Shown here: piece by piece, positions 30,635 to 62,278 of the stretch
How positions within the stretch are numbered: position 1 is the stretch's first letter
Layout of the letters: every line of letters starts with the position of its first letter
From: Asparagopsis taxiformis
Taxonomy: Eukaryota; Rhodophyta; Florideophyceae; Bonnemaisoniales; Bonnemaisoniaceae
NCBI GenBank assembly: GCA_030407315.1
Contig: JALQPE010000071.1
Coordinates: 1-64,000 of the forward strand
Reading direction: 5' to 3'
DNA length: 64,000 bases
Made by a program: the position numbers and the translations under genes
The notes under the pieces: generated by a model
What the model was told of the DNA's origin: nothing
Database searches by the model: none
What the model saw: only the letters and a program-made list of their open reading frames with translations

Positions 30635-32979
30635 AACACTAGTTTGGTGTATTTCGGGGGAATATTTTTGAAATAGGGAAATTTCAGAATGGGCGAATCT
30701 GGGTGTAATGCATATCGCTGGAGAGCTACTTTCGAGCAAATTACAATGGTACTCATTTGGTTGGTTCAGTGCTCATAGTTACCAAGCTATTCAAACTTCT
30801 ATTTTGGAAGCAAAAATGACCTATCAGTTGTGCATTGTTCTGAAGTTTAAATATTTTTTCCGATTTTCAATATCACGTGGTCTGTCTCTCATGGTAATAA
30901 AGCGTTTGAGCTGGTATGATGCGTATCGCATCCTGAAATCTCAAAATTTTTTATGCTTGCAACAAGAAAGTGCACATGAGCCATCAGATCGTTTTCAAAA
31001 CACACCGACGGTGGTGTATCCAATCGGTTACTGTTAGACCAAGCTTGTATGAAATAGAAGATGGATCTGGAGGATGTGAAGATTTGGACGAATAAGTTAA
31101 TGTTGATGATGAATGTCTCGCATGGCATGTCGGTGCATTGGAAAATGGCAGAGATAGCAACTTTCATCGCATCGCTCGTGGATCTACAGTGCCATCGCAT
31201 CTATCCATCCGTCTAACATCCGCCTCTGCCGCACCAATATCTCTTCCCCCACCACTCTGCTTCCTGCATGTCTAACTAGCGCGCAAGCTTCCGAAGATGC
31301 AGAGCATTCCGCGCGAAAGGAACCGCTCTATCCAAGTCACGAACTAGACATCGTCCACCGTGCTACCTTTCGCCAACCATCACTACGTCACACTGTACGA
31401 GAAGCGCTTTGCCAAGCGGTAAATTAGCTCTGCTACCGCGATTTCTTCACCCTCCCTTACAGACGCATTCATGAGCTCGTACCCATCGTTACCGCCTTTC
31501 AGAGCTGCGATATTGGGTAATAGAAGCGTCTCACCCTTCGCAAAGCCTCATGTCTCAATGTTTACATATGAACTGGAAATGAAGGAGGTTATTGGAAGTC
31601 ATGAAGCGAACTATTATGCGCAATACATGATCATTACCCCAAGTTTCATTATCGCACAATCATGGTAACAACAGCATGCATTTTATCTTCATCATCTGCA
31701 CTGCAGTTCATGAGCTATGGTTAAGATGATGAAGTTGGATAGACCAATGTTCCATCTACATCTTTAAGAAGAAGGTAACACGCGTAGAGGTCGATGGCAT
31801 GGCCGTATCATACCCCGTGTATGTTATACAAGTTCAAGTAAGCGCGGATGCTTCAGCAAAGCGATTGGTAACAAACGGATACCATGCATTAGAAGAGTCG
31901 GTGCAGTGCGAACTTCGTGCATCGCGATGAAGTTTTGAACATGTACTGGGTTTATTCCTGACAGCCTATCTCATTGAACAATTATACAGCTAACTGGTAA
32001 TGATTTATCAACATTTAACGATACGAAGACAATGTGCATGATGTGCATGGCTGTATATATGTACATGAGTGGAAAGTTCTAATGCGGACCTTGCGGGATG
32101 CTTGCAAGCGCGTGCATCATGCACGCGTATGATATGTCTGTATATACGGGAGTGGCTTTTACAGGCTTTGGAATCTCCCTCCGCGAGCCTCTTTCATGCT
32201 CTGCCATACTCAGTACGGAATGCCCGTGGTCAAACTGCGCAGCTGAATTTAAGGTAGCGCAGAGCTTGACTCACCCATGACGAATTTAATGCATCTATGT
32301 ACATCTCAATTGTGTACTCTACAACAGTTACTCTTGGAAGTATACGGCTTCGAGCATATGCGATGCATCCGAGGGAATCCAATTCAACACCGGCCATATG
32401 TAACCCAGATAGTTGATAGTGGAGAAGCAGAATCCTTTTCATAGACGTTCCGAATTGAGTATACTCAATTCAAGAGTATGCTGTTTTCTCATCGCTGTCA
32501 ACAAACGAAATCATTCACTAAAGTTTGCTATCCATGTGCATTGATTATGTGCAAGAAAAATCACCCAGCACAATAGCTGAAGCAAAATACATGAAGGAGA
32601 GAAGAGAATCGACGGGAAATCATTGGATCAGACTATGAAATCGCATATGGTGCAGTCATTGAAGTACCTACTGCCCGATTTGCACCGCAAATTGTGCCAT
32701 AGTTGAAGCACTTGCTGTAGCTTTTCTAGAACGAGTATTGTTTAATTGATTCACATCGCATCGCACACATTTTCTATTTTGCTTGTGTACTCTTCTGTTG
32801 CATGTTTGCACAAACAGCACAGATTCGCTCATTTGTCTCGCCTCCACTGCATAAGTCATGCACCTTTTTTCGGCACTTTGTGCAAACAGTGAGTAGGCGC
32901 TCGGGCCGTTGAGCATCAGGGTTATTTGCGAGGATACATAACGGTCCTGATGCACATATCACGTACTTTCTCGATGATG
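30635..32979. repeat. Left terminal inverted repeat
   Basis: It pairs with 60859-62278 (outer part) and 39498-40409 (inner part). The last ~200 bp encode the C-terminal zinc finger of the methyltransferase. The repeat contains a perfect 20-bp palindrome GAATTGAGTATACTCAATTC (32452-32471) and an odd 19-bp palindrome CGCGTGCATCATGCACGCG (32109-32127). No other protein-coding potential is convincing in 30635-32770. Confidence 0.88.
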
Positions 32980-34789
32980 GACCATTGGTTGTATTGGGGC
33001 GTGATAGTTCCGTAGTTTCTCTATTTTCGGATGAGATATGTGAGGAATACGCAATATCGTTCTGGTCAGAAAGATTTGTGGCATCTGAGCTCTTCTCAGA
33101 GGGATCAGCATCGGTTTCAGACTGCTCTAGTCTCTCTTTGCCGAATTCATCTTCTTGGAACTCTTCAGTATCTTCGGTACTGGAGTTGGATCCGAATCGG
33201 GAAAGGATACAAATAGTCTCAGCCTGTGATTCGCCTACTCCCAGTGTCCGAGATCTTGTATTACGAGTGCTCTGTGTTGAATTATTTATGTCCTCCGCGC
33301 ACCTCAGTAAACGATTCCTAGCCAATCTGAAACAATCGCTGCTCTGCTCCACAAGTGTGCAAGACCTTCTTGTGGCGAGGCAGGCAATTCCAGTTGTCAT
33401 TGTACCTGCATACGTGTCCAACACATTCCCATCCTCCGGAGCGAATGTAGTCATAATCTCTGCCAAAAGGAATGGATTCTTCTCTTCGACACGCACTCTA
33501 GCTCGGCTGTTTGGGTATGTGAGCTTGTTCCTAACTATAGGAATGTTATCGATAACATTGAATTTTCGTTTGTGGGATACTCGAAGCAGACAGTATTGAG
33601 ATTGGAGATTTGCTTTGAAACCAGATGGGTGTTGCCCGGCACATCTACCAACTAGTGCAAATTCCACGGCATTCTGTGGGAATGTGTTATTTCTTGTACG
33701 TTGGAGTCCGGAACTCTCTTTGACAAATGTCAGTGGATGTTGCATCATTGAAATATCTGTTGTCCGGAATGCATTGAACCATCTTGGCAGTAAATGAAAT
33801 GATGAAAATATCACGACATATCCGCCCGGCTTAACCATTCTTCTCGTGAACTGTACAAATGACTCCATCTCAGCATCGTCTATGTAATCACTGTACTCAG
33901 ACCCTGTATGAGAGGCATTTGGTTTCACCATATATGGAGGATCCGTTAGCACGAGGTCGAACGTTTGCTCTTCAGATACAACAGTGTTGCGATAGTGCTG
34001 CCAGGACATTTGGTAGCATCTTATATTGTATGATTCAAGCAGAAAAATCTCATTTGAGTCCTTTGTTCCTGTACTAGTATCCAATCTTTCGGATGTTTGA
34101 GTGTGAGGTACTGAAACTGAGTTTGCCTTGGACTGCTGAGAGGAAATTTTTTTCTTACCAATATCCTGCTCGCCGATGGAGGTGGATGATTGTTTGCCAG
34201 TCTGGATGCTAGAGTCATCTGCATTTAAAGTTTCCGAATCTTCTGCATCTTCGTCTGAAGCACTAGGTGCACACTTCGGGCCTGGTTCCTGTGGTTCCTG
34301 AGTCTCGGCAGGGTTTTGATGCAGTGAAGGTTCTGATGAGTTGAGTTCATTACCTGATTCGATGTTTCCCTGAGGATCGCATTTTTCTCGGAGAACACGG
34401 CTTTGTGTATCCATATACTTCTTCATCATCCAATCGAACTGAGATGGACATGCACTCTTGAATACCTTGAGCAATGAAGGAAGTATGTCAATGTCATTTC
34501 CAGCGTTACTGAGTACCTCTTCATCGAGAACAAACGTACGAAGAAGATTTTTCTGAATTACTTCCAGGTCTTTCGGCCATACATCGGAACCCAGGAAGCG
34601 TTGAAACTTCTCGGCCTCAAGACGAGCAGCTTTGGCTGCTACAACTTGTTTTTGCATGACAGCCGCGGGGACAGTACGAAAGTTGTTCTGCTTGCAGTAC
34701 ATCTGCGCACGGTAAAGAGAATTGATTTGGTCCGCTGCAGTGGAGTTCATGAACGCAGAGGAGCCTTTGAGAGTATTCGTAGAGATCAT
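32774..34789 (-). CDS. Beta-class DNA amino-methyltransferase with C-terminal zinc finger (copy B)
   Basis: A 671-residue protein from the first ATG at 34789 (MISTNTLKG). Residues ~1-130 are helical. ~135-250 are acidic and Ser/Gln-rich, probably disordered. The catalytic domain spans ~255-500: TDPPY at 282-286 (motif IV; DPPY is typical of adenine-N6 or cytosine-N4 enzymes), KPGGYVVIFSS, then NPFLLAEIM and LDTYAGTMTTG (457-467), a degenerate motif I for S-adenosylmethionine, and TLVEQSSDCFRLARNRL. Motif IV before motif I is the beta-class order of bacterial enzymes. After another acidic linker, residues ~608-671 form a Cys/His finger (CTKC, HDLC, CAVC) encoded within the terminal inverted repeat. 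It likely methylates DNA in the nucleus; the target base and site are unknown. Confidence 0.85.
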   Translation of the reverse strand: MISTNTLKGSSAFMNSTAADQINSLYRAQMYCKQNNFRTVPAAVMQKQVVAAKAARLEAEKFQRFLGSDVWPKDLEVIQKNLLRTFVLDEEVLSNAGNDIDILPSLLKVFKSACPSQFDWMMKKYMDTQSRVLREKCDPQGNIESGNELNSSEPSLHQNPAETQEPQEPGPKCAPSASDEDAEDSETLNADDSSIQTGKQSSTSIGEQDIGKKKISSQQSKANSVSVPHTQTSERLDTSTGTKDSNEIFLLESYNIRCYQMSWQHYRNTVVSEEQTFDLVLTDPPYMVKPNASHTGSEYSDYIDDAEMESFVQFTRRMVKPGGYVVIFSSFHLLPRWFNAFRTTDISMMQHPLTFVKESSGLQRTRNNTFPQNAVEFALVGRCAGQHPSGFKANLQSQYCLLRVSHKRKFNVIDNIPIVRNKLTYPNSRARVRVEEKNPFLLAEIMTTFAPEDGNVLDTYAGTMTTGIACLATRRSCTLVEQSSDCFRLARNRLLRCAEDINNSTQSTRNTRSRTLGVGESQAETICILSRFGSNSSTEDTEEFQEDEFGKERLEQSETDADPSEKSSDATNLSDQNDIAYSSHISSENRETTELSRPNTTNGPSSRKYVICASGPLCILANNPDAQRPERLLTVCTKCRKKVHDLCSGGETNERICAVCANMQQKSTQAK

Positions 34790-34864
34790 ATCTCTATACA
34801 CTCTACAGTCAAGGGTTGGGAGTGGATTGAGTGAGCGTCCCTGCGATGATGCTCTCTGTTTCTC

Positions 34865-35668
34865 TTAAGATCTCGCGAGCTCCGGGTGTTCCCCGTTCAC
34901 CAATTCCCCAACCTTCTCCAGCACAATGCTAGATAGTTTCATAACACACCCAGCAAGCTGTCTCTGAGTGCTAGTCGACCTTCCATCCCCTCCTGCGTAA
35001 AAATCAGCGACTGCTGTTACGAATCCCTTAGGGATCCTAGAATCATCCAGACATCGCTCCCTTTTCAACGTATTACAGTCGTCATGAAGAGATTTCATAG
35101 GGTCGAAAACTGTCGTTTTGATGATGTAAGAGTCCTCCTGAAGAGCGTTCCTTGCTCGAGCGTACGCACGAAGCTTATCTAAGGGTGATGGGTTTATGCA
35201 CAAAACAGTCCAAGAGAACCCAGCCCATTGCTCTGGTGACTTTTCCATCAAGCGCTGAAGAACAAGGAGGCGGTGAAAGCCATCTACGATTCCGAACCAA
35301 GCCGCAAACTTTTGAACTTCCTTTTCTGCATCTTCGTTATTCATTCCATGTTCCTCCATGAGATAGGATTTCGGATAACTGCGAAAAGCACCTTCAAGTT
35401 TAATAACGACAGCTTTGTTCCCGGCACTGCTTATTCCTCTCTCTATTATTCCATTTTGAGCCCCACTTCCGGTTGTGAAGCTGTGCTCTAGTCTATCGAG
35501 GCCTGAAGGAGATATGTGACGAACTTTTGTGAGAGGCACGCATGATCTTGGGTCTACCTGAATGATTCTTGCACCTTCTATGTCGCCAAATAGGATTTGA
35601 ACACGCTGGATTTTCATGGGTGGAACATCTTTCTCACTTTTTTTCCTTGGTGTAGACTTTCGCGGCAT
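34865..35668 (-). CDS. Small ParB-like protein (copy B)
   Basis: 267 residues from ATG at 35668 (MPRKSTPRKK); the open frame extends eight codons further without an ATG and passes a TTGTTGCAG acceptor-like site, so an upstream exon is possible. The basic N terminus suggests nuclear import. IIQVDPRSCVPLTKVRHI, SGLDRLEHSF and the signature VDGFHRLLVLQRL (near residues 130-142) match the ParB/Srx-like fold, followed by LDKLRAYARARNALQED, the position of the ParB helix after box II. No helix-turn-helix or extra enzyme domain is obvious. The 3' end lies about 75 bp from the methyltransferase start, both on the minus strand, so the two genes may be co-transcribed. Partner or substrate is unknown. 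Confidence 0.72.
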   Translation of the reverse strand: MPRKSTPRKKSEKDVPPMKIQRVQILFGDIEGARIIQVDPRSCVPLTKVRHISPSGLDRLEHSFTTGSGAQNGIIERGISSAGNKAVVIKLEGAFRSYPKSYLMEEHGMNNEDAEKEVQKFAAWFGIVDGFHRLLVLQRLMEKSPEQWAGFSWTVLCINPSPLDKLRAYARARNALQEDSYIIKTTVFDPMKSLHDDCNTLKRERCLDDSRIPKGFVTAVADFYAGGDGRSTSTQRQLAGCVMKLSSIVLEKVGELVNGEHPELARS

Positions 35669-37050
35669 TCTGCAACAAATCACAAACAACACTGCAATGC
35701 CTATGGAAGAGTCTCTGAACAGTCACACTTCATATATTGCCAATAGACCCAGCACTTCCGATAGATCAGTACCTATCTTCTCAAGATTAGTATTGCAACG
35801 TCAGCGGAGCGAAAGGGATAGTGTTCAAACGCGTAGTTGGGATGATGAGAACAATGGATCGATTCTATACGCCGGCTAAAGAAGAATATTAAAGCTTCGA
35901 TCTTCCATGAAATATTCAGCCGAGTGCAGCACAGTGGGAATGAAATCTATCACGATTTTTCTTGACAAGCGTCTAGTTTCATTGTGAAGAACCTATCTAT
36001 CGACCAATATTGAAAATGCCCTAGACATGACTTGTGTCATATATCCTGAGAACCTGTCATTTCATCTGTGCCAGCCGTACGTTTGGTTTAGAAATTGTAG
36101 CTTACCTTTAATCAGAATGACTATTGGCCCTTGATTACACTGTACTGGTTACAATGCGTAGACCATACATGGAATTCTCCACCGTGTTAAAATGGCATCT
36201 TTCCATTGGTTGACGGAAACCGCCATGTGCTTCTCCAATCTCTTCATTTCGAAAATGCCCCAAAGATGGTAGCCGTTTGCTTCATTTGTAGCTGCCCCGC
36301 TGTAAAAACACTTTGAGGTATAAGACCACAGATGCTCACCAATTGCCACGAGACCACTTCAATTCAGACACGTATTGATCCGTTCCTGTGAGCGAGTTTC
36401 CACATGCGCTCTAGACACGTCACGTTTGACGTGTGGACCGGGATGTTGGATTCTCATGAGAAACCACCATCCGTGGATAGCTCATCCCTCCACAGGCCTC
36501 AAATCTGATGAAATTGAATCTAACAGGATAAGAAGGCCTTGCCATCGAGAAATATCATTCTGCCTAATGTAACGAATTAGTTTTGAAACATATCCTTCTA
36601 TTGAGAACCGAAAGTTTCTGGAGAGAGATGTTACAGTCCCGTACAAACTGCACGAAACATCACTAAAGCCACTGGTAGTGGGGAGCAAGACCACTGAGTA
36701 CACTCGGCCAGTACGTACGGTAAGTGGCGCTGAAAATTGGAATCAATTCGTTCAATGAGTTCCTCACTTCGCACCAGTCCGAATATCGCTGGAGCTGAAC
36801 GGAACATTGAATATTAGTATGGATGATAGATGAAGTTATCGGCTTTCGGGGTATGCACGATGATGAACCTAACTCAAATCAATTTAACGTAACTGGAAAT
36901 CCTCTGCCATCACTCCACATCTGCCACAGTCAGACATTGAACTATTCAGGATACACGGTTCAACTGAACCCAATTCACGTTTCTTCTGCTAGTTGACGCG
37001 TCTCCCACTCCTCAAAATCTGGTCATTGTGTCATTATCACTGGTCTTTTC
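35669..37050. other. Divergent promoter region between the ParB-like and transposase genes
   Basis: About 1.38 kb without convincing coding sequence between two divergent genes, so it should hold both promoters. It contains the 20-bp inverted repeat at 36415-36434. No TATA box was assigned with confidence. Confidence 0.5.
36415..36434. promoter_or_regulatory. ACACGTCA/TGACGTGT inverted repeat
   Basis: Two 8-base arms, ACACGTCA and TGACGTGT, separated by CGTT. ACGT cores of this kind are bound by bZIP-type factors in many eukaryotes. Its position in a divergent intergenic region makes a regulatory role plausible; the same sequence is conserved in the second copy near 51010. Confidence 0.35.
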
Positions 37051-39703
37051 ATGTCATCCCTCTCAGATTCGGTTTGCATCAACTGCGATGAAGATGAACC
37101 TGTACTGTCGAGTCCAATTCCTTCACATTTAAGGCTCTCTACTACATTTACCTCAATTGAAACTCCGGAATCGACGCACTTTTTGAATCATCTTCCTACA
37201 TATCACCGAAATGGAAAGCCTACACCCTACCGATACTATATTTCTGGTATTTGTAAGCCTTTAAGTCCAAGTTTATCCAGGCGTCGTTACAAATTGAAGG
37301 AAAGAACTCCACGAGCCGACTCGGTAAGTTCTCTAAAAAAATGGAGGCTGGAGCAGTCCCAGACAAGTCTCAACCCGTTCGAAATGAATAGAACCTGCTG
37401 CGTGAAACTAGAATGCTTCCGACGAATTGCTACGAACGGTTCTATCGGCTATACATTTGAAACATATAAGCGAATAATGGCAATGGAGCGAGAGGAAAGG
37501 AAACGGACTCTACTTTTGATGCTCAAGCCCGATGAAGGGCAATTCTATTTCAACAACGAACGGGTTTGTGGAGAATTCCTTCGATTGGGTTTCGGGTTTT
37601 CTCGAACACTGCAGAGCTGCGTGAAAGGTACTTCATGTGCCCCTGCGTCTAGGTCCGTTGCAGCATTGCCAAGGGCTCCCCGCGAATTCTTATCCCATAA
37701 GGAATCTATTCTCATGTTTCTTGAATCACTTGCGGACACTACGGCACAAATTATGCCTGACAGAGACGAAAAGCACTTACCGGCATTCAAGAAAACCGCA
37801 GTCTATGAGCAGTTTCGGGAGAATTATGAAGAATATGAAAGTGATGGTTCCGTTCGAGTACCTCCCTCGAAGAGCTACTTCTTTAACATATGGAAACGTC
37901 ATTCTTCGCATATCAAAGTTAGAAAGCACCACAGGTTCACGAAGTGCTCCGAGTGTGAGCTTCTAAGGTCTGAACTTGACAAGTGCGGTCTCAATGAAAA
38001 TCGTGCCAAACCTCTTAGGGATCGTCAAAAGATTCATTATTAATACATTGCTAGAGAAAGGCTTGCATACTCTATGAAAGCAAAGATGGCCGCGAGGAAC
38101 CCGAAATCTTAATGCTCATTCGTGATAGATGGTGCAGACCAATCCGCTTTTGGATTGCCGCATTTTGTACAAAGACGTCTTTGATACGAAATCTTCCAGG
38201 GGTGAGAAACTAAAGGTGAAGTTAATTGGCTCGCTAGAGCATGGCTCAGTGAACAACTTGACATTGTTTCTTCTCACTGAAGAGTTTGAACTGGAGGGAA
38301 TCATATAATTGAAACAATACATCGAGTACTGCAGATGAAGTTCGATACTGGAGCACTACCAAAAACCCTATTTCTACAGCTTGACAACTGCACTAGGGAA
38401 AATAAGAACCGGTATGTGATGGCTTATATCGAAACGTTAGTAAGCCGGGGTATCTTTGATGAAGTACAAGTCTCGTTCCTCCCAATCGGCCATACACACT
38501 CTGACATTGACCATTGTTTCAGTCGAACTTCTCAAAGGTTGCGAACTAATGAAGCGTTGAATATGGAACAGATGATGGAGGAACTAAAAATGTGCTACAA
38601 TCCTGCACCTGTGGTTGTTCGGATGAAACATGTCGTAAACTTTTCGGGCTTGTGCATTCTCCAAGGATGCCTCCGAAAAATACCTCCATTCAGTCATTAC
38701 CGGTTCTTCCGGTTCACCAGGACAGCTTGAGGAGGTCAGAGTTTTGAAGATGGAGTTCTTTCGAGCGGTACAAAATGCGCTGTCCGCGTGGCCTGTCTGG
38801 ATGATTGGATTCCTCTTGATGAATCATCTCCTCAGACAGGCTTCATTAAATTTCCCCCAGACCTGAAGCTTACACCTGTTTCCAAACTTCGATCCCCTGA
38901 TAACGTAATAAGCATAAACAAGTGCTTGGAGTCATGCGAGGAAAGGATTTCGAATGCTTCTGTTCTTCGTTCGCTAAGAGAATTGAGAGACCAAGTTTAT
39001 TGTGACCGAGACGATCCGTTCCATTGGGATCTGGCACACTCATTTGAGATGAACCAAACGCATATCCTGGATGATTCCGGAGAGGAAGACAATTGCAATT
39101 ATATTCATCCAGGTATTGGATTCGAGTACAACTCTGGTGAGATGGTGGCAGTTAAGACCTCATCATCAGATTGTCCATTTTGGGTTGCTGAGATTCTATC
39201 CATCTCCCAGAGATCGGAGGATAACGTAATAACCAGGATCAAAATCAGATGGTACGAGCAGTACAGAAATGACACTGATATCTTCACTGCAAGATATGCT
39301 CCAAGCAATACAAAAATCGGGAAAAGAAATGTCCCTTTCATTCAGGAAATCAGTGTTCAGACAATATTGGTGAAGTTCGGACGGCTGAAGAGGGATAAAA
39401 GAATTAGTGTAAAAGATGCCAAGAGCATCCGAAGCTCTCTTGGGGTTGCATGACAGTTTGATGGGCTCCCCAGGAAATGAAACCCACCTTGAATTACCGT
39501 CACCGGGAAAGTCCGTGATATGTGCATCAGGACCGTTATGTATCCTCGCAAATAACCCTGATGCTCAACGGCCCGAGCGCCTACTCACTGTTTGCACAAA
39601 GTGCCGAAAAAAGGTGCATGACTTATGCAGTGGAGGCGAGACAAATGAGCGAATCTGTGCTGTTTGTGCAAACATGCAACAGAAGAGTACACAAGCAAAA
39701 TAG
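37051..39703 (+). pseudogene. DUF7869-like RNase H-fold transposase, decayed (copy B)
   Basis: From ATG at 37051 the frame gives CVKLECFRRI, VCGEFLRLGFGFSRT and CSECELLRSELDK, then VIDGADQSAFGLPHF, KVKLIGSLEHG, LFLQLDNCTRENKNRY and SFLPIGHTHSDIDHCFSRT. These match, as I know it, the DUF7869-type proteins of mobile elements, where IDG.DQ, LDN and GHTHEDID lie in an RNase H-like core. Lesions: TAA at 38041 (only in this copy), TAA at 38110, frameshifts near 38175 and 38298, TGA at 38728. Conserved residues run through all of them, so they are not introns. Toward the 3' end a 67-nt GT-AG segment (39407-39473) would join the frame exactly to a zinc-finger exon in the right inverted repeat, ending at 39703, the same finger as in the methyltransferase. 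The gene is inactive as written; trans-mobilisation is likely. Confidence 0.75.
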
Positions 39704-40409
39704 AAAATGTGTGCGATGCGATGTGAATCAATTAAACAATACTCGTTCTAGAAAAGCTACAGCAAGTGCTTCAACTATGGCACAATTTGCGGTGCAAATC
39801 GGGCAGTAGGTACTTCAATGACTGCACCATATGCGATTTCATAGTCTGATCCAATGATTTCCCGTCGATTCTCTTCTCTCCTTCATGTATTTTGCTTCAG
39901 CTATTGTGCTGGGTGATTTTTCTTGCACATAATCAATGCACATGGATAGCAAACTTTAGTGAATGATTTCGTTTGTTGACAGCGATGAGAAAACAGCATA
40001 CTCTTGAATTGAGTATACTCAATTCGGAACGTCTATGAAAAGGATTCTGCTTCTCCACTATCAACTATCTGGGTTACATATGGCCGGTGTTGAATTGGAT
40101 TCCCTCGGATGCATCGCATATGCTCGAAGCCGTATACTTCCAAGAGTAACTGTTGTAGAGTACACAATTGAGATGTACATAGATGCATTAAATTCGTCAT
40201 GGGTGAGTCAAGCTCTGCGCTACCTTAAATTCAGCTGCGCAGTTTGACCACGGGCATTCCGTACTGAGTATGGCAGAGCATGAAAGAGGCTCGCGGAGGG
40301 AGATTCCAAAGCCTGTAAAAGCCACTCCCGTATATACAGACATATCATACGCGTGCATGATGCACGCGCTTGCAAGCATCCCGCAAGGTCCGCATTAGAA
40401 CTTTCCACT
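39498..40409. repeat. Right terminal inverted repeat, inner part
   Basis: Reverse complement of about 32068-32979. It is cut at 40409 by the Copia element; the outer part continues at 60859-62278. The first ~200 bp encode the zinc finger in the plus-strand direction. The five bases CCACT at 40405-40409 are the left copy of the Copia target duplication. Confidence 0.88.
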
Positions 40410-40821
40410 TGTGAAGGTTGAGACAGTTGGAGAGGTTGAGAAGAGAAGGAAAGATGTCGCTTGACTTGGTTTACTATCGGATCGCCTCGCAACACCACTA
40501 CTTATACTACTGGAATTTACAATTTCCGATTTTCAGAGTTCCAACCTGCAGCGCGCCGCATACACGACGGCGTAACCCTAGATGGCCCGAATCCGGATCG
40601 GTATCCACGTGTCAATCCCGATTCGACCAAAATGGTAAAATCACCAGCTCATTGCCCTGAACAAAGTCTACGGGGTTAGATTTCACATAGTCCACTAGAT
40701 CCTTCGCTACAGGCACAACAATGCAAGTAATCAATAATCCATATTGTATCAAATTCCAATAGTACTCACACGTGGAATCCAGCTGGAAACCATAAGCCAT
40801 TCTGAGGTGCCCACATCAACA
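40410..40821 (-). repeat. 3' LTR of Copia 3
   Basis: Minus-strand ends TGTTGATGTGGGC and CTTCACA. The gag-pol stop codon TGA lies within the first bases of this LTR. The purine-rich GCGGAGGAG next to it on the minus strand is the polypurine tract. Confidence 0.9.
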
Positions 40822-49457: not shown

Positions 49458-50264
49458 TTAAGATCTCGCGAGCTCCGGGTGTTCCCCGTTCACCAATTCC
49501 CCAACCTTCTCCAGCACAATGCTAGATAGTTTCATAACACACCCAGCAAGCTGTCTCTGAGTGCTAGTCGACCTTCCATCCCCTCCTGCGTAAAAATCAG
49601 CGACTGCTGTTACGAATCCCTTAGGGATCCTAGAATCATCCAGACATCGCTCCCTTTTCAACGTATTACAGTCGTCATGAAGAGATTTCATAGGGTCGAA
49701 AACTGTCGTTTTGATGATGTAAGAGTCCTCCTGAAGAGCGTTCCTTGCTCGAGCGTACGCACGAAGCTTATCTAAGGGTGATGGGTTTATGCACAAAACA
49801 GTCCAAGAGAACCCAGCCCATTGCTCTGGTGACTTTTCCATCAAGCGCTGAAGAACAAGGAGGCGGTGAAAGCCATCTACGATTCCGAACCAAGCCGCAA
49901 ACTTTTGAACTTCCTTTTCTGCATCTTCGTTATTCATTCCATGTTCCTCCATGAGATAGGATTTCGGATAACTGCGAAAAGCACCTTCAAGTTTAATAAC
50001 GACAGCTTTGTTCCCGGCACTGCTTATTCCTCTCTCTATTATTCCATTTTGAGCCCCACTTCCGGTTGTGAAGCTGTGCTCTAGTCTATCGAGGCCTGAA
50101 GGAGATATGTGACGAACTTTTGTGAGAGGCACGCATGATCTTGGGTCTACCTGAATGATTCTTGCACCTTCTTCTATGTCGCCAAATAGGATTTGAACAC
50201 GCTGGATTTTCATGGGTGGAACATCTTTCTCACTTTTTTTCCTTGGTGTAGACTTTCGCGGCAT
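49458..50264 (-). CDS. Small ParB-like protein (second copy)
   Basis: 268 residues from ATG at 50264. It differs from the first copy by one extra glutamate (GDIEEGAR instead of GDIEGAR) caused by a 3-base insertion in a CTT repeat. The DGFHR signature and all surrounding residues are the same. An in-frame change with no other coding differences suggests two alleles or copies under the same constraint. Confidence 0.72.
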   Translation of the reverse strand: MPRKSTPRKKSEKDVPPMKIQRVQILFGDIEEGARIIQVDPRSCVPLTKVRHISPSGLDRLEHSFTTGSGAQNGIIERGISSAGNKAVVIKLEGAFRSYPKSYLMEEHGMNNEDAEKEVQKFAAWFGIVDGFHRLLVLQRLMEKSPEQWAGFSWTVLCINPSPLDKLRAYARARNALQEDSYIIKTTVFDPMKSLHDDCNTLKRERCLDDSRIPKGFVTAVADFYAGGDGRSTSTQRQLAGCVMKLSSIVLEKVGELVNGEHPELARS

Positions 50265-51646
50265 TCTGCAACAAATCACAAACAACACTGCAATGCCTAT
50301 GGAAGAGTCTCTGAACAGTCACACTTCATATATTGCCAATAGACCCAGCACTTCCGATAGATCAGTACCTATCTTCTCAAGATTAGTATTGCAACGTCAG
50401 CGGAGCGAAAGGGATAGTGTTCAAACGCGTAGTTGGGATGATGAGAACAATGGATCGATTCTATACGCCGGCTAAAGAAGAATATTAAAGCTTCGATCTT
50501 CCATGAAATATTCAGCCGAGTGCAGCACAGTGGGAATGAAATCTATCACGATTTTTCTTGACAAGCGTCTAGTTTCATTGTGAAGAACCTATCTATCGAC
50601 CAATATTGAAAATGCCCTAGACATGACTTGTGTCATATATCCTGAGAACCTGTCATTTCATCTGTGCCAGCCGTACGTTTGGTTTAGAAATTGTAGCTTA
50701 CCTTTAATCAGAATGACTATTGGCCCTTGATTACACTGTACTGGTTACAATGCGTAGACCATACATGGAATTCTCCACCGTGTTAAAATGGCATCTTTCC
50801 ATTGGTTGACGGAAACCGCCATGTGCTTCTCCAATCTCTTCATTTCGAAAATGCCCCAAAGATGGTAGCCGTTTGCTTCATTTGTAGCTGCCCCGCTGTA
50901 AAAACACTTTGAGGTATAAGACCACAGATGCTCACCAATTGCCACGAGACCACTTCAATTCAGACACGTATTGATCCGTTCCTGTGAGCGAGTTTCCACA
51001 TGCGCTCTAGACACGTCACGTTTGACGTGTGGACCGGGATGTTGGATTCTCATGAGAAACCACCATCCGTGGATAGCTCATCCCTCCACAGGCCTCAAAT
51101 CTGATGAAATTGAATCTAACAGGATAAGAAGGCCTTGCCATCGAGAAATATCATTCTGCCTAATGTAACGAATTAGTTTTGAAACATATCCTTCTATTGA
51201 GAACCGAAAGTTTCTGGAGAGAGATGTTACAGTCCCGTACAAACTGCACGAAACATCACTAAAGCCACTGGTAGTGGGGAGCAAGACCACTGAGTACACT
51301 CGGCCAGTACGTACGGTAAGTGGCGCTGAAAATTGGAATCAATTCGTTCAATGAGTTCCTCACTTCGCACCAGTCCGAATATCGCTGGAGCTGAACGGAA
51401 CATTGAATATTAGTATGGATGATAGATGAAGTTATCGGCTTTCGGGGTATGCACGATGATGAACCTAACTCAAATCAATTTAACGTAACTGGAAATCCTC
51501 TGCCATCACTCCACATCTGCCACAGTCAGACATTGAACTATTCAGGATACACGGTTCAACTGAACCCAATTCACGTTTCTTCTACTAGTTGACGCGTCTC
51601 CCACTCCTCAAAATCTGGTCATTGTGTCATTATCACTGGTCTTTTC
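50265..51646. other. Divergent promoter region (second copy)
   Basis: Near-identical to 35669-37050, including the ACACGTCA/TGACGTGT inverted repeat around 51011-51030. One A/G difference near 51583. No gene recognised. Confidence 0.5.
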
Positions 51647-54292
51647 ATGTCATCCCTCTCAGATTCGGTTTGCATCAACTGCGATGAAGATGAACCTGTA
51701 CTGTCGAGTCCAATTCCTTCACATTTAAGGCTCTCTACTACATTTACCTCAATTGAAACTCCGGAATCGACGCACTTTTTGAATCATCTTCCTACATATC
51801 ACCGAAATGGAAAGCCTACACCCTACCGATACTATATTTCTGGTATTTGTAAGCCTTTAAGTCCAAGTTTATCCAGGCGTCGTTACAAATTGAAGGAAAG
51901 AACTCCACGAGCCGACTCGGTAAGTTCTCTAAAAAAATGGAGGCTGGAGCAGTCCCAGACAAGTCTCAACCCGTTCGAAATGAATAGAACCTGCTGCGTG
52001 AAACTAGAATGCTTCCGACGAATTGCTACGAACGGTTCTATCGGCTATACATTTGAAACATATAAGCGAATAATGGCAATGGAGCGAGAGGAAAGGAAAC
52101 GGACTCTACTTTTGATGCTCAAGCCCGATGAAGGGCAATTCTATTTCAACAACGAACGGGTTTGTGGAGAATTCCTTCGATTGGGTTTCGGGTTTTCTCG
52201 AACACTGCAGAGCTGCGTGAAAGGTACTTCATGTGCCCCTGCGTCTAGGTCCGTTGCAGCATTGCCAAGGGCTCCCCGCGAATTCTTATCCCATAAGGAA
52301 TCTATTCTCATGTTTCTTGAATCACTTGCGGACACTACGGCACAAATTATGCCTGACAGAGACGAAAAGCACTTACCGGCATTCAAGAAAACCGCAGTCT
52401 ATGAGCAGTTTCGGGAGAATTATGAAGAATATGAAAGTGATGGTTCCGTTCGAGTACCTCCCTCGAAGAGCTACTTCTTTAACATATGGAAACGTCATTC
52501 TTCGCATATCAAAGTTAGAAAGCACCACAGGTTCACGAAGTGCTCCGAGTGTGAGCTTCTAAGGTCTGAACTTGACAAGTGCGGTCTCAATGAAAATCGT
52601 GCCAAACCTCTTAGGGATCGTCAAAAGATTCATTATGAATACATTGCTAGAGAAAGGCTTGCATACTCTATGAAAGCAAAGATGGCCGCGAGGAACCCGA
52701 AATCTTAATGCTCATTCGTGATAGATGGTGCAGACCAATCCGCTTTTGGATTGCCGCATTTTGTACAAAGACGTCTTTGATACGAAATCTTCCAGGGGTG
52801 AGAAACTAAAGGTGAAGTTAATTGGCTCGCTAGAGCATGGCTCAGTGAACAACTTGACATTGTTTCTTCTCACTGAAGAGTTTGAACTGGAGGGAATCAT
52901 ATAATTGAAACAATACATCGAGTACTGCAGATGAAGTTCGATACTGGAGCACTACCAAAAACCCTATTTCTACAGCTTGACAACTGCACTAGGGAAAATA
53001 AGAACCGGTATGTGATGGCTTATATCGAAACGTTAGTAAGCCGGGGTATCTTTGATGAAGTACAAGTCTCGTTCCTCCCAATCGGCCATACACACTCTGA
53101 CATTGACCATTGTTTCAGTCGAACTTCTCAAAGGTTGCGAACTAATGAAGCGTTGAATATGGAACAGATGATGGAGGAACTAAAAATGTGCTACAATCCT
53201 GCACCTGTGGTTGTTCGGATGAAACATGTCGTAAACTTTTCGGGCTTGTGCATTCTCCAAGGATGCCTCCGAAAAATACCTCCATTCAGTCATTACCGGT
53301 TCTTCCGGTTCACCAGGACAGCTTGAGGAGGTCAGAGTTTTGAAGATGGAGTTCTTTCGAGCGGTACAAAATGCGCTGTCCGCGTGGCCTGTCTGGATGA
53401 TTGGATTCCTCTTGATGAATCATCTCCTCAGACAGGCTTCATTAAATTTCCCCCAGACCTGAAGCTTACACCTGTTTCCAAACTTCGATCCCCTGATAAC
53501 GTAATAAGCATAAACAAGTGCTTGGAGTCATGCGAGGAAAGGATTTCGAATGCTTCTGTTCTTCGTTCGCTAAGAGAATTGAGAGACCAAGTTTATTGTG
53601 ACCGAGACGATCCGTTCCATTGGGATCTGGCACACTCATTTGAGATGAACCAAACGCATATCCTGGATGATTCCGGAGAGGAAGACAATTGCAATTATAT
53701 TCATCCAGGTATGGATTCGAGTACAACTCTGGTGAGATGGTGGCAGTTAAGACCTCATCATCAGATTGTCCATTTTGGGTTGCTGAGATTCTATCCATCT
53801 CCCAGAGATCGGAGGATAACGTAATAACCAGGATCAAATCAGATGGTACGAGCAGTACAGAAATGACACTGATATCTTCACTGCAAGATATGCTCCAAGC
53901 AATACAAAAATCGGGAAAGAAATGTCCCTTTCATTCAGGAAATCAGTGTTCAGACAATATTGGTGAAGTTCGGACGGCTGAAGAGGGATAAAAGAATTAG
54001 TGTAAAGATGCCAAGAGCATCCGAAGCTCTCTTGGGGTTGCATGACAGTTTGATGGGCTCCCAGGAATGAAACCCACCTTGAATTACCGTCACCGGGAAA
54101 GTCCGTGATATGTGCATCAGGACCGTTATGTATCCTCGCAAATAACCCTGATGCTCAACGGCCGAGCGCCTACTCACTGTTTGCACAAAGTGCCGAAAAA
54201 AGGTGCATGACTTATGCAGTGGAGGCGAGACCAAATGAGCGAATCTGGCTGTTTGTGCAAACATGCAACAGAAGAGTACACAAGCAAAATAG
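51647..54292 (+). pseudogene. DUF7869-like transposase, decayed (second copy)
   Basis: It shares with the first copy the TAA (52706), both internal frameshifts and the TGA near 53324, but reads GAA where the first copy has its earliest TAA (equivalent of 38041). The shared lesions therefore predate the duplication, and the extra stop arose in one copy afterwards. From about 53709 onward further single-base indels break the C-terminal region and the finger exon; these lie in the low-quality stretch and may be sequence errors. Confidence 0.72.
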
Positions 54293-54994
54293 AAATGTGT
54301 GCGATGCGATGTGAATCAATTAAACAATACTCGTTCTAGAAAAAGCTACAGCAAGTGCTTCAACTATGGCACAATTTGCGGTGCAATCGGGCAGTAGGTA
54401 CTTCAATGACTGCACCATATGCGATTTCATAGTCTGATCCAATGATTTCCCGTCGATTCTCTTCTCTCCTTCATGTATTTTGCTTCAGCTATTGTGCTGG
54501 GTGATTTTTTCTTGCACATAATCAATGCACATGGATAGCAAACTTTAGTGAATGATTTCGTTTGTTGACAGCGATGAGAAAACAGCATACTCTTGAATTG
54601 AGTATACTCAATTCGGAACGTCTATGAAAAGGATTCTGCTTCTCCACTATCAACTATCTGGGTACATATGGCCGGTGTTGAATGGATTCCCTCGGATGCA
54701 TCGCATATGCTCTCGAAGCCGTATACTTCCAAGAGTAACTGTTGTAGAGTACACAATTGAGATGTACATAGATGCATTAAATCGTCATGGGTGAGTCAAG
54801 CTCTGCGCTACCTTAAATTCAGCTGCGCAGTTTGACAACGGGCATCCGTACTGAGTATGGCAGAGCATGAAAGAGGCTCGCGGAGGGAGATTCCAAAGCC
54901 TGTAAAAGCCACTCCCGTATATACAGACATAAATACGGTGCATGATGCACGCGCTTGCAAGCATCCCGCAAGGTCCGCATTAGAACTTTCCACT
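54087..54994. repeat. Right inverted repeat, inner part (second unit)
   Basis: Corresponds to 39498-40409 with many single-base indels. It ends in CCACT (54990-54994) followed by the Copia LTR, the same junction as at 40405-40409. Confidence 0.85.
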
Positions 54995-55399
54995 TGTGAA
55001 GGTTGAGACAGTGGAGAGGTTGAGAAGAGAAGGAAAGATGTCGCTTGACTTGGTTTACTATCGGATCGCCTCGCAACACCACTACTTTAACTACTGGAAT
55101 TTACAATTTCCGATTTTCAGAGTTCCAACCTGCAGCGCGCCGCATACACGACGGCGTAACCCTAGATGGCCCGAATCCGGATCGGTATCCACGTGTCAAT
55201 CCCGATTCGACCAAAATGGTAAAATCACAAGCTCATTGCCCTGAACAAAGTCTACGGGGTTAGATTTCACATAGTCCACTAGATCCTTCGCTACAGGCAC
55301 AACAATGCAAGTAATCAATAATCCATATTGTATCAAATTCCAATAGTACTCACACGGGAATCCAGCTGGAAAACCATAAGCCATTCTGAGGTGCCCACA

Positions 55400-58300
55400 T
55401 CAACACTCCTCCGCAGCTGTACTTCCAAGCCCATTCGACCGCATACGTCCTCAGAGCAATACGTCAAGCGGCTTCGTCAGCATATCAGAATCATTGTCTC
55501 CAGAGGCAATGTATTCGACTTACAGAACGCGCTGCTGCACCAAGTCACGAATGTAGTGAATGCGAACATCAATGTGCTTGGCACGTCCAGAGGCGCAGCG
55601 TTCACCTGTTGCCCAAGCAATTGCAGACTGATTGTCAGACTTTAGTACAATTGGGCTCGTCGAATCCACCACTCCAGCTTCACACAGCACATTTTTTAGC
55701 CAAACAAGTTCCGTTGCAGCAGATGCATTGCATGGTACTCAGCCTCACATGTGGACAAGGACACAGCATTCTGCTTCTTAGCACCCAGATGACCAAGCTC
55801 CTCCGATTTTCACAAGGTACCCAGACATTGATTTGCGGTCCAGGTGTCTCCGGCATAGTCAGAGTCAACGTGAGCTATCATTGCGAGACGAGCCGAGTAC
55901 GAGTACACATATCACAAGGTCAGTTGTTCCGTTGAGGTACCGAAGAACACGTTTTAACGCCACGATGGCAATATGCAGTGGGGGCCTTTGGAAACGAGCT
56001 AGGATGAGGACGGGTTGCAAGAATGTCCGTCGAGTGCGGAGAGCAAGGTAGAGCAGGGATCCAATCATCTGCTGGTAGAGCTCAGCCGAGACAGCACTTT
56101 TATCCTCCTCCGAAGCCAAACCAGTGAAGAACGATTCAACCATTGGAGTGATTGCCGGTCTAGACCCGCACATCCGAATCGGCGAAGGACCGCTTCGGGT
56201 GTACAAGGCTGAGACAGACGCAACAACTGAGATTGGCCATCCGTTCCACGTTTCCACTCAAGCTGAACTCCAAGGAAGAAGTCGGCGTTGTTCACTCACT
56301 CGAACTTCGTACAATCCTTGAGGCAGTAACCCCCACTGTGCCCAACTCACGTTCTGAAGTGCTCATCACAATCAAGTCATCCACGTATACCCGGACAAAG
56401 CATTTTTGGGTGATAATGCCCTGACAAACACGCATGGGGCACTGGGAAGTTCTGTGAATCCGAGCGTCTCCAAGTCCACTGTACAGACGTTTGTGCCACG
56501 CAAGGTGAGCTTGCTTCAGACCGTAAATGCTTTGAGCAGACGATAGCTCTCACACGCACACGGGTACTCCGCGAGGAGACATTACCCACACATCCTCGTC
56601 CAGTCTCCATTGAGGAAAGCTGTTTTCACATCCAGCTGTGCCACATAGAGTTGCAGCATGATAGCAATGTAGAGGAATGTGCGAACGAGGCTGAAGGAAC
56701 ACCACAGGGCATACGTTTCCATGTAGTCTGTGCCATAGGTCTGGAAGTTACACCCCAGCAACGATGCGTGCTTGAACCGATCCACTGTACCATCCGAGTG
56801 CGTTTCACCTTGAGAACAATATGAGTAGGTAGCGGCTGTGCACCCGGTGAGTCGTCTCGAGTCCAGTGCACTTGGATTTCAATGACTTGAACCTCGTCAT
56901 CAATGGCCTGCTTCCACAAGTCACACTCGGAAGGAGTGGCGTCATTGCCTCTCGAAGGGTTGGTTCATCGCTAGTAGTGACCTCGATGCACCATCACGTT
57001 GAGCAGGGTTAGCATGAAACCACGCCTGAGGGCGTTTACGCTTCCGGACCGGGTAACGCCTTTGTGAACCATCTCCATCACCCAGAGTTCGTGTTTGGTT
57101 TTCTCGTAAGTCCCGGTAGCACATCACCCGTGCATCATCATCATTGGAAGCTGCGTCATCCCACTCATGTCATCGCTGGTGAATGAATCTTGCCAATAGA
57201 TTTGTGCGAGCTGGAGTCCTGATCTGTGACGGGAGGGTTCCTAGTGTCCTGGGTACCATCGTCAAATGATATGCCAACATCGAAACAGTGTCACTGGATA
57301 CATCCGAGTCTGAATCGGCTTCGTCAGACATGCCAGTGCTCAAGGTCAGGTGCTCCAGGAAGCGATTCTCGTCAAAGGTGACATGGCGAGACTCAATAAT
57401 GTTTGCAGACGAGTCCTGAAATCCACCAACACTCTGTAGATCCGTGTGGCAGACACTCCAGAAGGAACCTTCCACCGCCGAGGCTCAAACTCGATCCTCG
57501 CGGAAGACGTAGCAAGTATGCCGAGCATCCAAACACTCTGATATCCTTCGTGATGTTTTGGACCATGAACAACCTCGAATGCAGTCGACTTAATGGCAGA
57601 GTGTGGGATGCGGTTGCGGACGTACACAACGTTTTTCAGAGCAAACGGCCACAATGAACTCGGAAGATTAGCCTGGATGAGCAGAGACTGGACGCCTCAA
57701 TAACGGTGCGATTGACACGCTCGGCAATTCCATTGTGCTCAGGAGTGTATGGTGGAGAGAATGTCTTTTCCACTCCCTCCCCCCCGGAAGGCATCTTGCA
57801 AACTACACATACTCCTGCACAACCGAATGCACACGACCACGTTGAAACCTGCATTTCCAGTGGTTGCAAACTCCCGTGTACACATCGGCTATATCGCTTT
57901 TTGCACGCATCATTCCGAAGAACAGAAAACCGTGAATGATCATCCAGAAACGAGGTTGCATAGCGGTGACCATCGGGGAACGATAGCGGAAGAGGACCAA
58001 TGATGTCCGAGTGGAGGATGTCCCCGACGCTGGAGCTGGTAGCAAAGTGGCTGGTGAACGGAAGTTTGTGTGCTTTGCCAAGACGGCACGCCCGACATAC
58101 ATCGCTGGAAGGCTGCAATTGTGGAACATCAGTCGTGTGTTTGTGCACATCAGACAGGTCTCGGAAGTTGACATGTGCGAGTCTCCTGTGCCATAACTCC
58201 GTTTCGGAAGCAGTAGACAAGACAAGGGCAGTTCCAGAAATGGGTGCAGCCTCCTCCGGTTGTGGTAAAACGTACAACCCGGACTGTCTGTCACGGTGAC

Positions 58301-59660
58301 CACTCCCGATTTCCATTCCATCCGATGCTCGAGAGAGATGCACATGACCAGAGTCGAAAGATGAATTGACTCCTTTGTCACACATTGACCAACTGACACA
58401 AGATTGTATCCGAGACCCGGCACAATAGTACATCAGAGAGACGCAAGTGACATGCTCGAACGGTATCAGAACATCTCCAGACTGTGTAGCAGTGACAGAG
58501 GAGTTGTCCGCGAGCTGATTGTGCGAGGCTCACATGATGTGATGGAGCCAGGACGAATACAGACAATGTGGCACATATGGTTGGTGCTCCGGAGTCTGCA
58601 TAGCACCGATTGTCGCATGGCGGCTTCACTGTTGTCGTTCCACTTGACTGCAGCAATTTCAACCTTCCCGGATTTGTTCACCTTCTTCTCAACACTGACA
58701 AGAGAGGTGTCATGTTTTGTGTCTGATGAAGATGCAATGATTTTCTTCAGATGATCAGGAGAAAGATGGTTGTTTGGATTGTGGGGGTTGATGTAGCAGC
58801 GGTCTTCGTGTGTCCAGGACGCTCACAGAAGTCGCAGCGAACGGCATTGCGCTTTGATGAGGATGATTTGGAGACGTTGAGAGCAGCAGCAAATGCTTTG
58901 GCGGCACCCGGAGATCGGATGGAACGTCAGAGTCGGAGTCGGAGAGATGAGAAAGATGAGCTTGCTGGTTTGATTTAGCAATGCCAGCTCTCTTCTTTCG
59001 GCGGCGACGTTTGGGACTCGGCCATATTGAGATTTTTGCGTTGTACCTATCGATGAGGGTGGTAGCAACAGGCCCAGGTGAGCTCTTCGACGTCCTTAGT
59101 GCGCAATGCGGCAGCAGTGCAGTGACTTCCAATAACTCGAAGGATCGATAGACGCAAGCAGCATCGGTGCCTTGTGAGCCTCCGGAATGCCAGCGCCCTT
59201 ACCCATGCGTTCCAGTTGAGCAAACAGAGATGTGTACTGGTCAACATACGCAGCCATGTCTTGGCCAGAATCCCTCAACGAAACAGCTGTGTTTGCACTG
59301 CGATGCGAGAGACAGTGCGACTGGAAGCATACCGGGCATCCAAAAGCTGAAGCATGCGAGCTGGATCATCGTCGGCATCAATGACAACGCGAAGAGGAGA
59401 GTCGCCGAGGGCGGTAATGATGATTCCAGAGGCCTTTTCGCGCTTCGAGAGACGTTTGGAAGCGTCGATGATGGAGTCGGCAGGGAAGCGGAGCTTGCAG
59501 AAGAGGCAGCATTGGGGTCAAACAACAGACCAGACACCTTGACACGACATGCAGCTCGGAGGCGAAGACGCCACAAGCCATAGTCCTCATCACGACGACC
59601 GTGAAAGCGGGGAAGTTTGATGGAGCCAGAGGTTCCAACGTCATTGTCGGTGTCGGACAT
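55400..59660 (-). pseudogene. Copia gag-pol polyprotein, broken by many indels
   Basis: The same protein as 40816-45105 in pieces: the integrase/protease segment (57636-58433) and part of reverse transcriptase/RNase H stay open, but single-base insertions and deletions occur every 50-200 bp, including inside motifs that are intact in the first copy. Most changes are one-base losses. The pattern fits uncorrected long-read sequence better than natural decay, given only one difference between the LTRs in the other copy. Confidence 0.8.
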
Positions 59661-60454
59661 GTGCCAAAGTAGAGGAGCAGGGAGCAGATGAAATGAAAGC
59701 ACGTCAGCGGAGGCAAAACAATTCGATTGTAAAAAGCAGTGAATCGACTCGAACGGAGATAGTCTCGACGTTCAAATTTTGGGATGGTGATGTGGTGGTG
59801 GATTGTCTCGACACCAATAGAAGCAGAGAGTTGGGTTGGTTCTGGTATCGGGGAAATAAGGACACCCCCTCAGAGTCGGACTCTGTGACACCCCGGGAAC
59901 GCACTCTCCCGGCGAGATGCGACTACAGCTGCCTCACTTGGTCGTGCGCACACAGACACAAGCGCATATAATCCTTACGAGTCGTCCCAAGGAGGTACTC
60001 ACTGAGCATAAGCTTTCCCCAGTAAATCAAGCTAGACTCTGCAGGAAGGGTGCGCGGCACGTGAACTCTACGGAACACGGAAGGGTCAGGAACACTCGGA
60101 CACTCACTCAGTCTGCTCTGGGATACTGGGACAGTCAATCACAGGTCAACAAATCACTGGCGGAACGGTGAAGAACCGAAGTTACTTGCACCGAGACGAC
60201 CAACACACACGGGCGGGCCACACGAAGACAGGCGGAACTGAATTCGTGCGGAGATGAACCGAGGTAGTGACACAGAGACAAGATCAACACGATCGATAGG
60301 GACAATCACGGACAACAGAGACAGACTGAGACAAAACTGAGACAAACAGAGACCGGACACTGAGACAGAGCAAACGAGCAACCAAAAACTGAGAACTGAA
60401 GACCGAAGCAGGAAGCGATTGAATCTGCTATAGTTGATCCTCTGGCCCATAACC
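59661..60454 (-). other. Copia leader and primer site (second copy)
   Basis: Matches 45106-45906 with indels. The primer site reads CTGGCCCATAACC on the plus strand, one G shorter than in the other copies. Confidence 0.7.
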
Positions 60455-60858
60455 TGTGGAGGTTGAGACAGTTGGAGAGGTTGAGAAGAGAAGGAAAGAT
60501 GTCGCTTGACTTGTTACTATCGGATCGCCTCGCAACACCACTACTTATACTACTGGAATTTACAATTTCCGATTTTCAGAGTTCCAACCTGCAGCGCGCC
60601 GCATACACGACGCGTAACCCTAGAGGCCCGAATCCGGATCGGTATCCACGTGTCAATCCCGATTCGACCAAATGGTAAAATCAACCAGTTATGCCCTGAA
60701 CAAAGTCTACGGGTTAGATTTCACATAGTCCACTAGTCCTTCGCTACAGGCACAACAATGTCAAGTAATCAATATCCATATTGTATCAAATTCCAATAGT
60801 ACTCACACTTGGAATCCAGCTGGAAACCATAAGCCATTCTGAGGTGCCTACATCAACA

Positions 60859-62278
60859 ACCACTCATGTACATATATACAGCCATGCACATCATGCACAT
60901 TGTCTTCGTATCGTTAATGTTGATAAATCATTACAGTTAGCTGTATAATGGTTCAATGAGATAGGCTGTCAGGAATAAACCCAGTACATGTTCAAAAATT
61001 CATCGCGATGCACGAAGTTCGCAACTGCACCGACTCTTCTTAATGCATGGTATCCGGTTTGTTACCAATCGCTTTGCTGAAGCATCGCGCTTACTTGAAC
61101 TTGTATAAAATACACGGGGTATGATACGGCCATGCCATCGACCTCTACGCGTGTTACCTCTTCTTAAAGATGTAGATGGAACATTGGTCTTATCCAAATC
61201 ATCATCTTAACCATAGCTCATGAACTGCAGGCAGATGATGAAGATAAAAGCATGCTGTGGTTACCATGATGTGCGATAATGAAACTTGGGGTAATGATCA
61301 TGTATGGCGCATAATAGTCGCTTCATGACTTCCAATAACCTCTTCATTTCCAGTTCATATGTAAACATTGAGACATGAGGCTTTGCGAAGGGGGTGAGAC
61401 GTCTATTACCCAATATCGCAGCTCTGAAAGGCGGTAACGATGGGTACGAGCTCATGAATGCGTCTGTAAGGGAGGTGAAGAAATCGCGGTAGCAGAGCTA
61501 ATTTACCGCTGGCAAAGCGCTTCTCGTACAGTGTGACGTAGTGATGGTTGGCGAAAGGTAGCACGGTGGACGATGTCTAGTTCGTGACTTGGATAGAGCG
61601 GTTCCTTTCGCGCGGAATGCTCTGCATCTCGGAAGCTTGCGCGCTAGTTAGACATGCAGGAAGCAGAGGGTGGGGGAAGAGATATTGGTGCGGCAGAGGC
61701 GGATGTTAGACGGATGGATAGATGCGATGGCACTGTAGATCCACGAGCGATGCGATGAAAGTTGCTATCTCTGCCATTTTCCAATGCACCGACATGCCAT
61801 GCGAGACTTCATCATCAACATTAACTTATTCGTCCAATCTTCACATCCTCCAGATCCATCTTCTATTTCATACAAGCTTGTCTAACAGTAACCGATTGAT
61901 ACACCACCGTCGGTGTGTTTTGAAAACGATCGATGGCTCATGTGCACTTTCTTGTTGCAAGCATAAAAAATTTGAGATTTCAGGATGCGATACGCATCAT
62001 ACCAGCTCAAACGCTTATTACCATGAGAGACAGACCACGTGATATTGAAAATCGGAAAAAATATTTAAACTTCAGAACAATGCACAACTGATAGGTCATT
62101 TTTGCTTCCAAAATAGAAGTTTGAATAGCTTGGTAACTATGAGCACTGAACCAACCAAATGAGTACCATTGTAATTTGCTCGAAAGTAGCTCCCAGCGAT
62201 ATGCATTACACCCAGATTCGCCCATCTGAAATTTCCCTATTTCAAAAATATTCCCCCGAAATACACCAAACTAGTGTT
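60859..62278. repeat. Right terminal inverted repeat, outer part
   Basis: Reverse complement of about 30635-32070. It ends ACCAAACTAGTGTT at 62278. Small indels relative to the left repeat continue through it. No coding frame. Confidence 0.88.

Follow-up and report, generated by a model that had tools for sequence, protein, structure and literature searches.

The window analysed here comprises 64,000 nucleotides of the red alga Asparagopsis taxiformis (contig JALQPE010000071.1, positions 1 to 64,000) and contains, between positions 30635 and 62278, a DNA transposon with long inverted repeats inserted into a Copia retrotransposon. The sequence AACACTAGTTTGGTG starts at position 30635, and position 62278 is the last base of its reverse complement; there is no other exact copy in the 64-kb window. 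Direct reading of the flanks gave the tetranucleotide CCCA on either side (30631 to 30634 and 62279 to 62282). Adjacent to these lie the two parts of the interrupted host gene, both on the minus strand, namely the downstream part of the Copia RNase H region (30161 to 30634) and the upstream part of the pol gene (62283 to 63344), the frames of which are broken in a noisy part of the contig. Joining of the flanks with one CCCA restored the open Copia frame GYSDSDW-GGCTINRKSTSGY; joining with both copies shifted the frame. A 140-bp probe made from the joined flanks was matched from end to end, at 97-98% identity, in all 40 places scored from 161 first-look candidates, although separate contigs do not necessarily represent independent copies. 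Four of these empty sites were fetched (L048-L051) and displayed an identical junction with a single CCCA and an open frame, relative to which the right flank in the window has a one-base gap. The rejoined frame and the empty-site matches demonstrate that the borders of the insertion, like its 4-bp duplication, are genuine and exact. An earlier note on this DNA (hereafter the original prediction) had described inward-reading ends flanked by CCCA and a Copia frame regained by deleting the element together with one CCCA. Both observations were reproduced, supporting its reading of a large inverted-repeat DNA transposon in Copia RNase H with an exact 4-bp target duplication.

The original prediction also implied an element of 31.6 kb, which proved to be wrong. 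Four complete copies located elsewhere in the genome measure 11,171-11,173 bp. One of them, C2431 (11,171 bp), served as reference for all canonical coordinates, and the other three share 99.69-99.77% identity with it. Two of the copies, C2104 and C2105, have a common right flank and are probably a single site on two contigs. Within each complete copy the inverted repeats are 2,331-2,332 bp long and 99.7-99.9% identical. The predicted repeat length of 2.3 kb therefore stands for complete copies, but in the window the right repeat is broken up and runs without interruption only over 60860-62278.

Positions 30635-40409 of the window correspond to canonical 1-9737. This part contains the left terminal inverted repeat, which begins with AACACTAGTTTGGTG (30635 to 32980, plus strand), an accessory gene (32774 to 35722, minus strand), a transposase gene (36997 to 39453, plus strand) and the inner part of the right terminal inverted repeat (39497 to 40409, minus strand). 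The right repeat is then interrupted by a 5.9-kb Copia retrotransposon with long terminal repeats (LTRs) of about 415 bp (40410 to 46318, minus strand), which is accompanied by a 5-bp target duplication, CCACT, with one copy at 40405-40409. A tandem second copy of 14.6 kb follows (46319 to 60859, plus strand), in which canonical 1093-9737 is repeated (46319-54994) and again followed by a Copia element. The outer part of the right repeat (60860 to 62278, minus strand; canonical 9733-11171) ends with CACCAAACTAGTGTT. The length of 31.6 kb is thus made up of the 11,171-bp element, the 5.9-kb Copia and the 14.6-kb tandem duplication.

Misassembly of an unpolished contig end is the probable source of the tandem duplication, because its junction is fully matched by the window contig only and because insertions and deletions (indels) pile up towards the contig end. 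The junction at 46318/46319 was matched in full in one of 40 scored places (71 candidates), namely the window contig itself. Gap openings relative to the reference numbered 7 over the first 9.8 kb, 21 over the next 8.7 kb and 30 over the last 1.4 kb, while the same element end on contig C811 showed 2 gap openings instead of 30. C811 has the right flank seen in the window, and there a single Copia runs directly into the right end of the element. The structure is contiguous in the assembly, and four further places (C3120, C3119 and two in C2210) match the junction probe up to base 67 of 100, that is 17 bases beyond the junction, at 91% identity. Against the unique full junction match, the indel-rich second half and the arrangement in C811, however, these points leave it improbable that the entire 31.6-kb structure is one real insertion with the tandem duplication included.

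The terminal 126 bp of the element matched 34 places in the genome, 21 at 96-100% identity (the window family, termed family 1) and 13 at 71-72% identity (a sister family, family 2), confirming that other copies possess the same ends. Ten contig placements included both ends, and 4-bp duplications were found in eight of them, representing seven sites. The duplicated tetranucleotides were CCCA, GTTG, CATG and ATGG in family 1, and ACTG (on both C338 and C158), CTTC and CAAG in family 2. The contig of C2105 starts at the element end and has no left flank. At C2237:7973-58223, two element ends lie 50 kb apart with mirror-image outer flanks and do not form a simple pair, which suggests a large inverted duplication or a fold-back of the assembly. 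The C2382 copy of family 2 harbours a nested element of a third family, about 10.98 kb long, which the relative C2455 lacks. When this element is read with AACACAG ends, its repeats show no differences over about 1,211 bp, and ATAT stands on both sides of it where C2455 has ATAC, which differs in one base. On this reading, a start with AACAC is common to all three families. The inverted repeats measure 2,331 bp in family 1, 1,225-1,399 bp in family 2 and about 1,211 bp in family 3, and the transposases of the other families are about 37-71% identical to that of family 1. A search for repeats inside the inverted repeats and for depleted methylation sites revealed nothing convincing. GATC sites are scarce in family 1 alone (29 observed, 52 expected) and not in the two family-2 copies (52 observed versus 53 expected, and 61 versus 69).

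In complete copies the transposase gene, which belongs to the DUF7869 family, forms a stop-to-stop frame of 815 amino acids (P0001); the copy in the window is broken by seven in-frame stops. The aspartates D378, D460, D500 and D502 are invariant in 39 of 39 aligned sequences. In the predicted structure these residues are located on an RNase H fold, with either D500 or D502 as the third member of the catalytic-type triad. The invariant aspartates, together with the predicted fold, point to a transposase-like protein of the DDD type. Its C-terminus contains a putative BAH-like domain. With this protein as query, Foldseek returned no match at E below 0.001, and a plasmid search returned no match.

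The accessory gene is oriented divergently from the transposase gene and combines ParB-like motifs, an N6_N4 DNA methyltransferase domain with the motif DPPY and a C-terminal Cys-rich finger. Its frame spans 983 amino acids from stop to stop in the complete copy C2431 (P0002) and contains one in-frame stop in the window. Among the remaining complete copies of family 1, C2104 has one indel in this frame, and C2105 and C1711 are free of stops. The 3′ end of the gene falls inside the left inverted repeat (canonical 2128 versus 2331), so that the end portion of the methyltransferase gene is duplicated behind the transposase gene. Residues 590-802 matched N6_N4_Mtase (PF01555) with an E-value of 5e-11 and 43.3 bits, compared with a Pfam gathering cut-off of 26.7. 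The same residues matched phrog_67, a family of phage methyltransferases (E 1e-23), and the PDB protein DpnA (E 2e-4). NCBIfam yielded five matches, each far under the cut-off, to three adenine DNA methyltransferases, one generic DNA methyltransferase and one rRNA guanine methyltransferase. The alignment displayed DPPY followed by an S-adenosylmethionine (SAM)-binding-type motif. We take the VDP and VDG-HR (DGxHR-like) motifs of the N-terminal part to be ParB-like, by motif only, and the accessory protein had no Pfam match to a ParB family profile at E 10. The protein database contained at least three relatives of the accessory protein among the best 7,993 candidates that were scored.

The resemblance of the methyltransferase to phage enzymes raises the question of whether the element is an integrated virus, or derived from one, that carries such an enzyme. 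This appears highly improbable: the phage similarity amounts to just 22-24% over the methyltransferase domain and occurs in 8 of 50,697 records, the ends are tight and accompanied by 4-bp duplications, and the 11.2-kb copy has only two frames above 300 amino acids, neither of which matched a capsid or polymerase family in a scan of these two large frames.

Selection on both genes was estimated from the ratio of nonsynonymous to synonymous substitution rates (dN/dS) between the window family and the C2382 copy of family 2. The ratio was 0.092 for the transposase and 0.081 for residues 19-766 of the accessory protein; within the latter, values of 0.069, 0.045, 0.400 and 0.020 were obtained for the ParB-like region, the middle region, the linker and the methyltransferase domain (to residue 766), respectively. 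All of these values are rough because dS was above 1.5 throughout. Judged by these ratios, both genes appear to be subject to purifying selection, with the methyltransferase domain as the apparently most constrained part of the accessory gene.

The head-to-head arrangement of transposase and accessory gene is present in at least three families (families 1, 2 and 3), although the accessory frame is broken in some copies of family 2. A genome search with PF01555 gave 2,605 first-look candidates, of which 150 were scored, and each of these 150 exceeded the Pfam cut-off. This set leaves out the accessory genes of the window family, for instance that of C2431. The same score of 65.6 bits was shared by 79 of the 150 matches, whose frames are often 1,186 amino acids long. 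A methyltransferase from the set was located within 10 kb of 12 of the 55 scored transposases, in a head-to-head orientation in every case (12/12). Eleven of these linked pairs are the eleven equal-scoring copies of one family with 55% identity, in which the gap between the genes is 3,165-3,168 bp in ten copies and 2,544 bp in C825. In the twelfth pair, on C293, the methyltransferase is 9.1 kb away. Other transposases of similar identity, for instance at C929:19813 and on C491 and C682, had no partner among the 150 matches.

These numbers bear on the possibility that the methyltransferase, as cargo, works for the host or for itself, for instance through genome-wide marking or defence against other mobile DNA, and has no role in the life cycle of the element. 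In its favour, N6_N4 methyltransferases outnumber the element, as seen from the candidates, the 150 matches above the cut-off and the many with one score, and no scored methyltransferase lies within 10 kb of 43 of the 55 scored transposases. On the other hand, the head-to-head partnership has been maintained in three families despite the divergence of their transposases, and the catalytic domain is under higher constraint than the transposase on average. We therefore regard a pure cargo function as unlikely.

The sequence demonstrates exact ends with 4-bp duplications, empty sites and near-identical copies at different sites, as well as invariant aspartates in a predicted RNase H fold and a conserved second enzyme; the steps of the mechanism given next are inferred. 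The transposase would bind the ends of the long inverted repeats, which start with AACAC, and excise the element. It would then join the element to a target whose strands are cut 4 bp apart, and repair of this stagger would produce the 4-bp duplication. The BAH-like C-terminal domain may read a histone mark and thereby bias the place or time of integration. The accessory protein would bind the element via its ParB-like part and methylate its bases; adenine N6 seems a likelier target than cytosine N4 because of the DPPY motif and the adenine-type relatives. Methylation of the element's own DNA by its second protein appears likely. Such a methyl mark might ensure that new copies stay expressed, or might switch the ends between an active and an inactive state.

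A broader and only tentative proposal is that several transposon lineages of this red alga have made a bacterial-type adenine methyltransferase their standard second gene. Mobile DNA would then write its own large-scale base modification while the transposase reads chromatin through the BAH-like domain, resulting in a two-part system of self-marking and targeting. If this were true, an adenine (or N4-cytosine) methylome might be made by transposons and not by the host. The element touches on the question of why a transposon would retain a DNA methyltransferase. It offers material in the form of a constrained enzyme, a stable head-to-head position and near-identical copies whose insertion sites are known and can be compared with empty sites. 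A link to histone marks of the host is suggested by the BAH-like C-terminus of the transposase.

Further features lie to the left of the insertion. Positions 1 to 3502 (plus strand) hold part of a second copy of the element (canonical 492-3982), which is joined to other sequence at 3502/3503. The same join is present on contig C1549, where an element copy with the same Copia left flank stops at canonical 3982 and continues with the window sequence from 3503 onward, indicating that one version of the locus is rearranged. Two large minus-strand frames at 4057-7719 and 9167-12430 are paralogues (34% over 334 amino acids) with a possible 2OG-dioxygenase-like C-terminus. In 9167-12430, the N-terminal region with VDP...DGSHR bears a weak resemblance to the ParB-like region of the accessory protein (hhalign E 7e-4, probability 26%). 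A minus-strand frame of 1,288 amino acids at 13651-17517 has no Pfam match; as a guess, it is possibly the transposase of another giant element adjoining the two ParB-like genes. An array of tandem repeats of about 35 bp is found at 19256-19704, where the same repeat-rich peptide appears in at least two overlapping open frames. A retrotransposon with 489-bp LTRs that are 98% identical extends from 23663 to 30160 and is presumably of the Gypsy type, as judged from its frames. Elsewhere in the genome, 13 matches to the phycobilisome family were recorded, 11 of them on contig C469; they make a red alga the likeliest host and led to rejection of a basidiomycete fungus as the source.

According to the original prediction, the long inverted repeats, the four-base duplication and the gene set match no DNA transposon group that its author could name. 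As a sign of novelty this is not supported, as the aspartate triad and the 4-bp duplication fit Sola and the gene set is of the type described for Sola1-1_Ec32. Sola elements are characterized, in the excerpted description, by a DDD transposase and 4-bp target duplications, both also found in the window element; they are mostly 2-9 kb long, some exceed 15 kb, and inverted repeats of 11-1,124 bp have been reported (PMC10741241). Sola1-1_Ec32 from Ectocarpus is a large Sola1 transposon of 21.5 kb whose accessory gene, on the strand opposite the transposase, encodes in 1,104 amino acids a ParB-like domain and a methyltransferase predicted to produce 4mC or 6mA (PMC12477816). Likened by description, the gene pair has the same arrangement in both, with a stop-to-stop accessory frame of 983 amino acids here; an element of 21.5 kb in a brown alga compares with one of 11.2 kb in a red alga. 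With a probability of roughly 0.6, we interpret the window element as one copy of an autonomous DNA transposon, 11.2 kb long and most likely Sola (Sola1-like), that moves in a red alga by the cut-and-paste mechanism proposed above. Membership in Sola is probable, judged by published descriptions. IS3EU was also considered and ruled out, since its elements are described with TA..TA termini and usually 6-bp duplications (PMC10045372), whereas the window element has AACAC termini and 4-bp duplications.

Two features differ from the Sola description. The inverted repeats of 2,331 bp (1,225-1,399 bp in family 2 and about 1,211 bp in family 3) go beyond the reported 11-1,124 bp, which is a range and not a strict definition, and the accessory gene is no part of the Sola definition in the excerpt (PMC10741241). 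The DUF7869 transposases might form a separate superfamily, still of the cut-and-paste type, that acquired the ParB-methyltransferase independently of brown-algal Sola1. The smaller size and shorter repeats of most published Sola elements and the BAH-like domain on the transposase would fit such an origin, as would the fact that DUF7869 was not mentioned in the literature searched. Since the aspartates, the 4-bp duplication and the opposite-strand ParB/methyltransferase gene coincide with Sola1-1_Ec32 and the Sola description, we consider it doubtful and retain the Sola assignment. Given the published descriptions, neither the idea nor this pairing of genes is new. Among the matches listed, the literature searched on Sola and on ParB and methyltransferase genes in transposons had PMC12477816 as its one relevant report of such an element, and it did not include this family, 2.3-kb inverted repeats, a BAH-like transposase domain, the selection pattern or methyltransferase numbers in one genome.

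Association of mobile DNA with DNA-modifying enzymes is also seen outside Sola. Fungal KDZ elements carry TET/JBP genes. Transposon-encoded TET/JBP genes (PMC13297926) and retrotransposons with cytosine methyltransferases (PMC5890265) are, as far as the cited excerpts go, likewise mobile DNA equipped with a DNA-modification enzyme, but they combine other classes of transposase or retroelement and of enzyme than the window element. MetB of early-diverging fungi represents a bacterial-type adenine methyltransferase in a eukaryote (PMC11258239). In the excerpted account, however, MetB is a PF02384 host gene of mainly vertical descent, whereas the enzyme of the window element belongs to PF01555 and is borne by a transposon.
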